Origin: Methylobacterium oxalidis
Lineage (GTDB): Bacteria > Pseudomonadota > Alphaproteobacteria > Rhizobiales > Beijerinckiaceae
DNA length: 64,000 nt
Direction: 5' to 3'
Assembly: GCF_007992195.1 (NCBI RefSeq)
Contig: NZ_BJZU01000003.1
Span: 1 to 64,000 of the forward strand
Shown here: positions 18,587-34,955 of the stretch, in pieces
How the letters are laid out: every line of letters starts with the position of its first letter
How positions within the stretch are numbered: the first letter of the stretch is position 1
The notes under the pieces: model-generated
Databases searched by the model: none
Seen by the model: only the letters and a program-made list of their open reading frames with translations
Told to the model about the DNA's origin: nothing
Translations under genes and position numbers: made by a program

Positions 18587-19474
18587 TCAGGCCGGGATCA
18601 CGTCGATGATCTCGTAGGTGTCCGGATCGATGATCACGACGTCGTCCTCGACCAGGATGAAGCGGTAGCCGCGATAGGCCGGCACCAGGGTCAGGATCGC
18701 GGGCGGGAGCGTGTGCAGCGTCACCGAGCGCGGGATCGCCGTGCCGACGTTGAGGCTGAAGTTCACGTTCCGCACCGGCGAGACGCCGACCCGGGTGATC
18801 GACTGGCGGAACTCCGTGCGCTGGCGCGTGTCGAGGCGGCTGACCGCGCCCCGCGCCTCGGTGCGGCTCGCCGCGCCGCCGCGCTCCGTCGCGCCCTCGC
18901 GTCCGCCGCGCCCGTCGCGGTCTGCCGCACCGCCGCGGCCGTCCCGGTCGCCGCGCTCGGCGGCACCGTCGCGACCCTCGCGGCCACCGCGCTCGCCCGC
19001 GCCGTCGCGACCTTCGCGGCCACCGCGCTCGCCCGAGCCCTCGCGTCCGCCGCGCTCGCCGGCGGCGTCCCGGCCGCCGGGCTCGGTCCCGCGCTGCGCC
19101 GCCCCGCCATTCTCGCGTCCGCCGCGCTGGCCGGCCGCGCCGCCCTCGCGGCCGCCCTCGCCCGCTCCGCGGGTGCTCGCGCCGCCGGCTCCGCCCTCGC
19201 CGCCGCGCGTGCCCGCGCCGCCGCCCGCGCCGCCGGCCTCACCGCCGCGCATGCCCGCGCCACCGCCGGCACCGCCACCGCCGACGCCCGCGCCGCCGGC
19301 ACCACCGCCCGCCGCTCCGCCGCCGGCACCACCGCCCCCGACGCCCGCGCCGCCGCCGGCACCACCGCCGGCGCCGCCGCCTCCGCCGCCCGCGCCCCCG
19401 CCCTGCGCGAGGGCCGTCGCTGCGCCCAGAACCAGCACGGCAGCCGTCACCGTGCTCCGAAAGAGCTTGCTCAT
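18587..19474 (-). CDS. Gly-rich exported DUF1236 protein
   Basis: 295 residues in three parts. A signal peptide (1-23, ALA cut site) is followed by a Gly/Ala/Val tract to about residue 100 made of GGGAGGGAG-like units. A charged repeat region (about 100-210) iterates units such as [13 protein letters not shown]-terminal DUF1236 domain (about 220-295) includes [25 protein letters not shown] and [16 protein letters not shown]1236 proteins are exported and functionally uncharacterised; the Gly tract suggests an extended or surface structure. A perfect EcfG promoter lies 56-81 bases upstream, so general-stress induction is likely. The repeats make this the most compositionally biased gene here. 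Confidence 0.88.
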
Positions 19475-19529: not shown

Positions 19530-19555
19530 AACGAGAAGGTGAAGGAAACCGTTCC
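19530..19555 (-). promoter_or_regulatory. Perfect EcfG (general stress) promoter
   Basis: On the minus strand GGAAC, a 17-base spacer, then CGTT (+ strand 19551-19555 and 19530-19533), the exact consensus of the alphaproteobacterial general-stress sigma factor EcfG/SigT. Predicted transcription start is near 19523, about 50 bases before the DUF1236 start codon. Confidence 0.8.
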
Positions 19556-33189: not shown

Positions 33190-34212
33190 ATGAACGATCT
33201 CGGGTCAATGCCTGCCGGGACCCCTGCCGTGGCGTCCCAGCCCGCGACCCGTCGCCTCGCGGCCGAGGAGGCGGGCCTCGCCGAGGCAGCGCGGCTCCTC
33301 TCGGCGGGCCGGCTCGTCGCCTTCCCTACCGAGACGGTCTACGGTCTCGGCGCCGACGCCACCGATCCCGCTGCGGTCGCCCAGATCTTCGCCGCCAAGG
33401 AGCGGCCGCGCCTCAATCCGCTGATCGCCCACCTGCCCGATGCGTCCTCGGCCTGCGCGCAGGGTGACTTCGATGGCGCCGCCCTGCGCCTCGCCGAGGC
33501 GTTCTGGCCGGGCCCCCTGACCCTGGTGGTGCCGGCGCACGAACGCACCACCGTCTGCGACCTCGCCCGGGCCGGCCTGCCGAGCCTCGCCCTGCGGGTG
33601 CCGGCGAGCGCGCTGGCGCAGGATCTCCTCGCCCGGGTCGGGCGACCCGTGGCGGCGCCGTCGGCCAACCGATCGGGCCGGGTCAGCCCGACGAGCGCCG
33701 GGCACGTGCTCGGCGACCTCGACGGGCGCGTGGCGGCAATCCTCGACGGGGGCGCGACGCCGGTCGGGCTCGAATCCACTGTGGTCGCCTGCCTCGGCGG
33801 CGCGCCGCGCCTGCTGCGGCCGGGCGGCGTGCCGCGCGAGGCGATCCGCGAGGTTCTGGGATGCGAGGTGGCGGACGCGGAGGCTGACGCCGCGGCGCGC
33901 CCGGTCGGGCCCGGCCTGCTCGCCTCCCACTACGCGCCGCGGGCCCGTGTGCGCCTCGACGCGCGGCGCATCGAGCCCGGCGAAGCCGCGCTCCTGTTCG
34001 GGCCCGAGCCGGTGCCGGGCATCGCCGCGGCGCGCGCCGCGATCAACCTGAGCCCGCGCGGTGACGCCGCCGAGGCGGCCTCCCGCCTGTTCGCCGCGCT
34101 CCGCGACCTCGACGCCTCCGGCGCGGCTGTGATCGCCGTCGCGCCGATCCCGATGACGGGCCTCGGCGAGGCCATCAACGACCGGTTGAATCGGGCCGCG
34201 GCACCTCGGTAG
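33190..34212 (+). CDS. tsaC: L-threonylcarbamoyladenylate synthase (Sua5/TsaC)
   Basis: Makes threonylcarbamoyl-AMP for the t6A tRNA modification. 340 residues, the long Sua5 form: YrdC domain (about 25-210) with AFPTETVYGLGADA, KERPRLNPLI and SANRSGRVSPTSA, then a linker and Sua5 domain (about 230-335). The ATG at 33190 is embedded in TTTATATATG, which looks like a -10 element; if so transcription starts just downstream and the true start may be the ATG at 33208. Confidence 0.93.
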   Translation: MNDLGSMPAGTPAVASQPATRRLAAEEAGLAEAARLLSAGRLVAFPTETVYGLGADATDPAAVAQIFAAKERPRLNPLIAHLPDASSACAQGDFDGAALRLAEAFWPGPLTLVVPAHERTTVCDLARAGLPSLALRVPASALAQDLLARVGRPVAAPSANRSGRVSPTSAGHVLGDLDGRVAAILDGGATPVGLESTVVACLGGAPRLLRPGGVPREAIREVLGCEVADAEADAAARPVGPGLLASHYAPRARVRLDARRIEPGEAALLFGPEPVPGIAAARAAINLSPRGDAAEAASRLFAALRDLDASGAAVIAVAPIPMTGLGEAINDRLNRAAAPR

Positions 34213-34225
34213 AAATTTTTCTGTG

Positions 34226-34249
34226 AGGCGCGGAACCAACGCCGCGCCT
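34226..34249 (+). terminator. Hairpin after tsaC
   Basis: Perfect 8-bp stem AGGCGCGG / CCGCGCCT with an 8-base loop, 14 bases past the tsaC stop, no U-tract. It overlaps the -35 and spacer of the EcfG promoter, so it would form only in tsaC read-through RNA. Confidence 0.4.
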
Positions 34250-34257
34250 ACCCCGTT
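34232..34257 (+). promoter_or_regulatory. Perfect EcfG (general stress) promoter
   Basis: GGAAC at 34232-34236, a 17-base spacer, CGTT at 34254-34257: exact consensus. It points into a 98-bp stretch with no ORF that ends in two intrinsic terminators, so its product should be a short non-coding RNA starting near 34264. Confidence 0.8.
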
Positions 34258-34268
34258 GATGGGTCACG

Positions 34269-34298
34269 AAGGCCAGTTCAGCCCCCAATGGCCTTTTT
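34269..34298 (+). terminator. Intrinsic terminator 1 (C-rich loop)
   Basis: Stem AAGGCCA/TGGCCTT, loop of 13 bases including CCCCC, followed by TTTTT at 34294-34298. It may end transcription early or act as the functional loop of the small RNA, with terminator 2 as backup. Confidence 0.7.
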
Positions 34299-34304
34299 CC
34301 TTTC

Positions 34305-34332
34305 AAGGCTCGGAGCAATCCGAGCCTTTTTT
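34305..34332 (+). terminator. Intrinsic terminator 2
   Basis: 10-bp perfect stem (AAGGCTCGGA / TCCGAGCCTT), tetraloop GCAA, then TTTTTT at 34327-34332: the clearest rho-independent terminator in the window. Confidence 0.88.
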
Positions 34333-34355
34333 CTTGCGCGCTGCCACGGCGGCGC

Positions 34356-34955
34356 TCAGGCCGCGAGCTTGCCCGCGATCGTCGCCACGTGGCGGCCCTG
34401 GAAGCGAGCCCCGTCGAGCTCGACCTGGCTCGGCTGCCGGCTTCCGTCGCCGTCGGCGATCGTGGTGGCGCCGTAGGGCGTGCCGCCCTTCACCGCCTCG
34501 ACCCCGTTGAGGCCCGCGAAGGCGTAAGGCAGGCCGACGATCACCATGCCGTGGTGCAGCAGCACCGTATGGATGCTCGTCAGCGTCGTCTCTTGGCCGC
34601 CGTGCTGCGAGGCCGTCGAGGTGAAGGCCGAGCCCACCTTGCCGACGAGCTTGCCCTGCGCCCAGAGGCTGCCGGTCTGGTCGATGAACTGCTTCATCTG
34701 CGCCGCCATGTTGCCGTAGCGCGTCGGCGTGCCGAGGATGATCGCGTCGTAGTCGCCGAGTTCGTCCGGGCTCGCGATCGGGGCCGCCTGATCGAGCTTG
34801 TAATGGTACTGCTGGGCGACCGACTCGGGCACGAGTTCCGGCACCCGCTTCACGGTCACCTCGGCCCCGGCCTCGCGGGCGCCCTCGGCCACCGCGTGGG
34901 CGAGCTGCTCCACGTGGCCCCAGGACGAGTAGTACAGCACCAGAACCTTCGCCAT
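34356..34955 (-). CDS. wrbA: NAD(P)H:quinone oxidoreductase WrbA
   Basis: FMN-dependent two-electron quinone reductase protecting against redox cycling. 199 residues, usual length, flavodoxin-like fold: [13 protein letters not shown] binds the FMN phosphate, [16 protein letters not shown] and [11 protein letters not shown] complete the site, and the WrbA-specific insertion is present. Divergent from a LysR regulator across a 156-bp region containing repeats that could be its operator. Confidence 0.96.

Follow-up and report, generated by a model that had tools for sequence, protein, structure and literature searches.

The window, the whole stretch of 64,000 nucleotides analysed here, carries a candidate small RNA gene between tsaC and wrbA, gene names that we keep from the earlier note. 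In brief, tsaC is a 340-aa ORF at 33190 to 34212 on the plus strand, the same strand as the RNA gene, and wrbA is a 199-aa ORF at 34356 to 34955 on the minus strand, convergent on the RNA gene as that note had stated. The small RNA is predicted to be about 69 nt long (34264 to 34332, plus strand), as delimited by a conserved block, the fold and covariation, and starts 52 nt after the end of tsaC. Its 5' end, 34264, is a prediction based on the spacing from the promoter and on where the conserved block begins. The interval from the promoter to the wrbA stop (34258 to 34355) is indeed 98 bp long, but it had also been described as free of ORFs, and mechanically called open frames do overlap it. 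The ATG within the first hairpin has no stop codon inside the RNA, and the linker between the two hairpins varies in length among relatives, and therefore the reading frame varies as well. On these grounds a small protein encoded by this stretch was rejected.

The promoter is an exact match to GGAAC-N17-CGTT at 34232 to 34257 on the plus strand, with the -35 box at 34232 to 34236 and the -10 box at 34254 to 34257, as first reported. Upstream of the -35 box, at 34213 to 34220 on the plus strand, is an A/T tract resembling an UP element, recognised from the sequence itself and from A+T-rich columns in relatives. The EcfG consensus of M. extorquens is given as GAAC-N16,17-C/GGTT (PMC4814048), and the promoter in the window is of this GGAAC-N16/17-CGTT type. 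Taken alone, the match is near chance and weak. The 64-kb window holds two matches to GGAAC-N17-CGTT, against a mean of 0.77 in shuffled sequence, with two reached in 18 of 100 shuffles; genome-wide there are 136, against 65 for the reversed control. The second exact match in the window is at 19530 to 19555 on the minus strand, 55 nt before the ATG of an ORF for a glycine-rich protein (18587 to 19474, minus strand), which we regard as a candidate EcfG-regulated gene.

The hairpins follow directly. Hairpin 1 (34268 to 34296) has 8 pairs, 34268-34275 with 34289-34296, closing a 13-nt loop, GUUCAGCCCCCAA, and the CCCCC of this loop (34282 to 34286) is the proposed pairing site. An unpaired, pyrimidine-rich linker (34297 to 34304) leads to hairpin 2, which has 10 pairs and a 4-nt loop and forms, with its T-run, a predicted intrinsic terminator (34305 to 34332). 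All of these are on the plus strand. The fold energy of the RNA is -28.9 kcal/mol, whereas shuffled sequences average about -14.7 (z about -5.3) and none of 200 did as well. A terminator scan gave a single site, hairpin 2 (34305-34328, 10 pairs and T-run), where shuffles of the region give 0.5, and this match alone is also weak. Since the promoter and terminator matches are each near chance, the argument rests on the comparison among relatives.

The RNA was confirmed in 96 of the 111 genomes of the genus, the other 15 being unconfirmed. A DNA search matched 95 of the 111 at E <=0.01. Two of the genomes (G105 and G005) were confirmed by the covariance model at 69.9 and 65.9 bits, and G050, with a 20-base match alone, was not confirmed. 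Among the 16 genomes without a DNA match, the model found the RNA, with its promoter, in G063 and G035; the remaining 14 are not among the genus genomes that the model searches listed. Twelve named records, nine titled Methylorubrum and three Methylobacterium sp., contain a 46-letter pattern of the RNA. The counts given below for promoter boxes, loop and neighbours rest on an RNA-aligned set of 92 loci. A second, partial copy in one genome (L097 in G019) is excluded from the parsed-loop, spacer and 92-locus counts, and was included in the first promoter tally.

GGAAC is retained in 90 of the 92 aligned loci, the other two (L063 and L072) carrying GCAAC, and 89 of the 92 have CGTT, TGTT or CATT as -10. 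The best -10 among the 90 GGAAC loci is CGTT in 60, CATT in 17, TGTT in 12 and GATT in one (L033). The spacing of the boxes in these loci, picked for each locus to give the best -10, is 16 bases in 76 and 17 in 14. Within the 89 loci that have both boxes, mean identity in the spacer columns is 50% for 74 distinct sequences with spacer 16 and 56% for 14 with spacer 17. It should be noted that the 100% identity of the -35 box in this 89-locus analysis is a product of how the loci were selected, which does not apply to the count of 90 out of 92. The columns 12 to 18 bases 5' of GGAAC are 73-93% A+T in the 74 sequences with spacer 16 and 86-100% in the 14 with spacer 17. The boxes are thus kept while the spacer drifts, and the promoter therefore appears to be under selection. 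We suggest that the RNA gene is very probably turned on by the general stress regulator EcfG. As a separate observation, the CATT form of the -10 box, seen in 17 of the 92 aligned loci, falls largely in the Methylorubrum clade, as the named records suggest, and may mark a clade-wide promoter change.

In the 89 loci that could be parsed, the loop of hairpin 1 is TCAGCCCCCAA in 79 and contains CCCCC in all 89. The T-run that follows hairpin 1 is 5 long in 35 of these loci, 4 in 34, 3 in 11 and 2 in 9, and reads TTC in the three unparsed loci. Hairpin 2 is followed by T6 in 84 of the 89. The earlier note had described two back-to-back intrinsic terminators, the first with a 13-nt CCCCC loop, and a product of 45 or 70 nt. 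The loop and the terminator at hairpin 2 hold, whereas hairpin 1 is doubtful as a terminator. A 45-nt product is doubtful because the U-run after hairpin 1 is not conserved, and the prediction is an RNA of about 69 nt.

Covariation was scored on alignments built by sequence, with the structure taken from the fold of the window RNA. The first alignment holds 60 of the 62 distinct genus sequences (L007 and L052, whose ends were trimmed differently, are omitted); 97.2% of its cells pair, and changes on both sides are found in 4 of the 18 pairs. The second is made of 24 chosen rows, which include divergent genomes of the genus, genus g32 and a second copy of the RNA in the own genome. In this alignment 12 of the 18 pairs have changes on both sides, 95.3% of cells pair and compensatory changes fall in both stems. 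Its covariation score of 0.384 compares with a shuffle mean of 0.180, a value of 0.384 being reached in none of 500 shuffles, and with at most 0.131 for slid partners.

We also searched for the combination of a stem of at least 7 pairs round a CCCCC loop and a terminator within 55 nt. In 481 kb of own-genome strand sequence this gave three places, all with an EcfG-type promoter, two of them in loci chosen for such a promoter or for the RNA model. In 1.39 Mb from other genomes, most of it loci that had been selected for the window RNA, the scan gave only the window RNA or close kin: 66 distinct core-like places, 64 with the promoter, plus L117 with the promoter. The combination of promoter, CCCCC hairpin and terminator is not chance.

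As to the gene neighbourhood, a tsaC homologue lies immediately upstream of the RNA in 89 of the 92 aligned loci and 831-847 nt off in the other three. A convergent wrbA homologue is found in 66, within 200 nt in 63 of these, and none lies within the examined flank in 26. In six genomes of g32, another genus in the family (G320, G309, G206, G247, G285 and G141) the promoter, CCCCC hairpin and terminator are found with no tsaC or wrbA homologues in the examined flanks; one of these (G285) has a shorter loop in hairpin 1 and CATT as -10.

At E <=0.1, a covariance model built from the genus only (R1) had matches in 165 of the 248 genomes of the family. We read 20 of the matched regions, and 10 have an EcfG-type promoter and 10 do not. 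The 10 promoter regions are four from g32 with the RNA, the g32 near relative L117, three divergent genomes of the genus, the second copy in the own genome and one phyR-side RNA, described below. With a second model (R2), matches at E <=1e-4 were obtained in 42 of the 397 genomes of the order, and of the 31 loci read only L200, from g32, has the promoter. The promoterless matches, 10 of the 20 regions and 30 of the 31 loci, were read as terminator look-alikes. Since most of the wider matches are promoterless, our claim for the RNA is limited to the genus and g32. Weak matches are lost through the strict filters of the wide searches, which do not prove that the RNA is absent elsewhere. The earlier note had made its case depend on promoter and hairpins being kept in related genomes. 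The comparison bears this out: it supports an independent small RNA gene that has an EcfG-type promoter and is kept as one unit in genomes across the genus.

Rfam 15 gave no match to the window at gathering score, and a search of 12 loci with sibling or kin RNAs gave only a tRNA at threshold. The best weak match by E-value was suhB/mmgR (RF00519), like the window RNA a two-hairpin small RNA of alphaproteobacteria; it was rejected because its 21 bits (E-value 0.018) fall short of the gathering score of 41, and the place in the window is not among the 24 RF00519 matches listed in the own genome. Seven suhB/mmgR matches above the cut-off lie elsewhere in this genome (L098-L101 and other places). 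BjrC68 (RF02353) was likewise rejected, with 16.6 bits against a threshold of 39. We recognised no description of the window RNA in the GsrN, EcfG/PhyR and Methylobacterium/Methylorubrum small-RNA literature, as represented by partial texts that include PMC5869019, PMC4814048, PMC6520949 and PMC8103513, with most subscription journals outside this scope. The RNA is thus apparently undescribed, although small RNAs of the EcfG type with a C-rich loop are already known as a kind.

The genome encodes the machinery for such regulation, namely phyR, nepR and six ecfG-like genes. A NepR-like stretch is in the same open frame in five of the six ecfG-like genes and in a separate upstream frame in the sixth, on contig C158; three of the six stretches pass the Pfam cut-off. 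For EcfG of M. extorquens, an extension at the N terminus has been described (PMC4814048).

Among the closest known systems is GsrN of Caulobacter, a sigma-T-dependent RNA whose C-rich loop pairs with G-tracts and which is processed endonucleolytically, under the influence of Hfq, to a stable 5' isoform (PMC5869019). Outside the Caulobacteraceae, Tien et al. (2018) put forward homologues of GsrN on the basis of their expression, an EcfG site and a location close to phyR; adjacency to the phyR/ecfG locus is the criterion for such genomes, with C. crescentus itself an exception, and the BLASTn hits to GsrN that the paper reports are confined to the Caulobacteraceae (PMC5869019). Compared with the published description of GsrN of C. 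crescentus, not by direct alignment, the window RNA shares a general stress sigma promoter, a C-rich loop near the 5' end, exposed according to fold and covariation, and a 3' terminator hairpin, and is probably trans-acting too. It differs in having two hairpins only, a predicted length of about 69 nt and a location away from phyR: it lies on contig C3 and phyR on contig C82, at least about 60 kb apart by contig positions.

In the own genome (G000), the place beside phyR on contig C82 is taken by another candidate RNA gene (L122:161-285), tail to tail with phyR. It has an EcfG-type site (L122:161-185) followed by GGUCCUCCCCGCAUUCCCC and a terminator. The phyR gene itself (L122:401-1246, on the opposite strand) has matches to PhyR_sigma2, PhyR_sigma-like and Response_reg. 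This phyR-side RNA was matched in 110 of the 111 genus genomes, and its promoter is found in all 12 places read among the best matches of the search (13 loci, two of one place). It resembles the window RNA in its EcfG-type promoter, C-rich unpaired stretch, terminator and genus-wide conservation, but has another sequence and fold, with GGUCCUCCCCGCAUUCCCC in a branched loop, and the window model gives it at most about 25 bits. Near phyR there is also a 64-aa hydrophobic ORF (L122:1743-1937, minus strand), which an EcfG-type site precedes by about 40 nt.

The earlier note had inferred, with caution, homology of the window RNA to GsrN from its layout. As orthologue of GsrN in this genus, the RNA would be expected to carry the EcfG-type promoter, 5'-proximal C-rich loop and 3' terminator that it has. 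Positions could be compared in 95 of the 96 confirmed genomes; of the 94 with both RNAs, 43 have them on one contig and 25 have the window RNA at 10.1-18.6 kb from the phyR-side RNA, which also speaks for orthology. We consider such orthology unlikely, given the low score of the window model on the phyR-side RNA, the family-limited BLASTn hits in the GsrN paper and the better match of the phyR-side RNA to the published criteria (PMC5869019). The homology inferred in the earlier note is unsupported, and the phyR-side RNA is likely the positional GsrN of the genus. With a separate RNA in the place next to phyR, the window RNA is a second and different one, distinct from the positional GsrN. It seems to be a new Methylobacterium stress RNA with no direct kinship to GsrN, though its way of working may be similar.

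Further EcfG-type RNAs appear to be encoded in the own genome. The pattern GGAACN{15,18}NGTTN{8,38}CCCCC gave 14 matches in 12 places, against 7 in the control. One place is a second copy of the window RNA (C133:6444, L102:1976-2042), where GGAAC-N16-GGTT is followed by the UUCAGCCCCCA loop of the window RNA and by a terminator; R1 gives it 36.6 bits, and R2, of which it is a training row, 55.4. At C4:208004, C17:5061 and C182:6803 the CCCCC lies inside a first hairpin that is followed by a terminator-like second hairpin. The folded stretch at C182 does not outperform shuffled sequence (z -0.93), and the C17 candidate adjoins an ecfG-like gene on the opposite strand. The resemblance of these three to the window RNA, as looser kin, is suggestive only. 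Besides the C133 copy, an EcfG-type promoter with a CCCCC hairpin and a terminator behind it was seen in this genome in L143 (from 1501), L145 (from 1501) and L152 (minus strand, near 1561 downwards).

The best explanation, to which we assign a probability of about 0.7, is that the window encodes a small RNA that depends on EcfG and acts in trans, its C5 loop pairing with G-rich mRNA sites. Under stress, PhyR would remove NepR from sigma-EcfG, and EcfG-RNA polymerase would start at about 34264 and stop at hairpin 2, so that the main product would be a single RNA of about 69 nt; EcfG-driven expression and the exact ends are predictions. The 8-bp hairpin would present the CAGCCCCCA loop, which we infer, as for GsrN, to pair with G-rich stretches of other mRNAs; all targets, and any binding of Hfq, are likewise putative. 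Such pairing would alter translation or stability of the target mRNAs. RsaE/RoxS, stress RNAs of Gram-positive bacteria, also offer a C-rich motif to G-rich mRNA sites; they are under other regulators, and we claim no sequence relation to the window RNA.

We looked for targets in three ways, and the leaders of ecfG-like genes, the phyR leaders and the loop complements gave no convincing support for any. The leaders of five of the six ecfG-like genes form duplexes of -12.7 to -16.0 kcal/mol with the loop, energies for which no control was run, and contain no long complement; the sixth gene (C158) has no clear start and was left unscored. The idea that ecfG-like genes, and thereby sigma-EcfG3, are targets is not supported by these duplexes. 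The stretch GUUGGGGC in the phyR leader of the own genome is kept in just 5 of 12 places (13 rows, two of one place). The loop complement TTGGGGGYTGR occurs in five places in the own genome, one being the antisense of the RNA itself, against four for the reversed control. BTTGGGGGCTGA occurs in 36 places in 25 of 41 genus genomes, against 16 for the control. Eight of the 36 were counted as the RNA's own antisense, six in loci read and two from their coordinates; without them 28 remain against 16, an apparent mild excess. No recurring gene was recognised among 30 loop-complement loci read, where grouping by tblastx is unreliable for G+C-rich DNA. One site lies 64 nt before a gene that we take to be radA and overlaps the end of a gene that is presumably alr; its place before radA is probably incidental.

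An RNA with an almost invariant loop and no recognised conserved complement in mRNA could instead have a protein as its partner, which the hairpin loop would bind in the manner of a decoy or sponge; if dosage matters to such a decoy, the second copy with its identical loop would fit. However, no candidate protein emerged, short G-tract seeds would escape patterns of 11 and 12 letters, and the C-rich loop of GsrN acts through pairing (PMC5869019). We regard a protein decoy as improbable. Finally, that the hairpins are a mere 3'-end terminator region of tsaC beside an incidental promoter match, as the short distance to tsaC, its homologue immediately upstream in 89 of 92 loci and the near-chance matches might suggest, is very improbable in view of the retained boxes round a drifting spacer, the persistence of the unit in three loci with tsaC more than 800 nt off and in the six g32 genomes without tsaC in the examined flank, and a near-invariant CAGCCCCCA loop that a terminator does not need.

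Keeping to the trans-acting RNA, we tentatively put forward a wider possibility, namely that the window RNA, the phyR-side RNA, the C133 copy and the looser candidates at C4, C17 and C182 form a bank of EcfG-driven C-loop RNAs that would act additively on shared G-rich mRNA sites, and that one of these RNAs may underlie the post-transcriptional rise of sigma-EcfG3 in M. extorquens. The part on sigma-EcfG3 is the least likely element, the ecfG leaders having given no support. In M. extorquens, stress was found in 2016 to raise the sigma-EcfG3 protein in a PhyR/EcfG-dependent manner with no transcriptional change, "possibly by a small RNA" (PMC4814048). The window RNA and the phyR-side RNA would be concrete candidates for this factor, though the sequence gives no convincing ecfG target.

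Conserved boxes round a drifting spacer offer a clean route to finding more such RNAs. Since the window RNA is present besides a separate phyR-side RNA, the stress response of the genus would have at least two candidate RNA outputs, with at least two conserved EcfG-promoter RNAs in the genus. With the window RNA, the general stress response of a plant-associated, methylotrophic and much-used genus gains an RNA that is deeply conserved and, it appears, undescribed so far.
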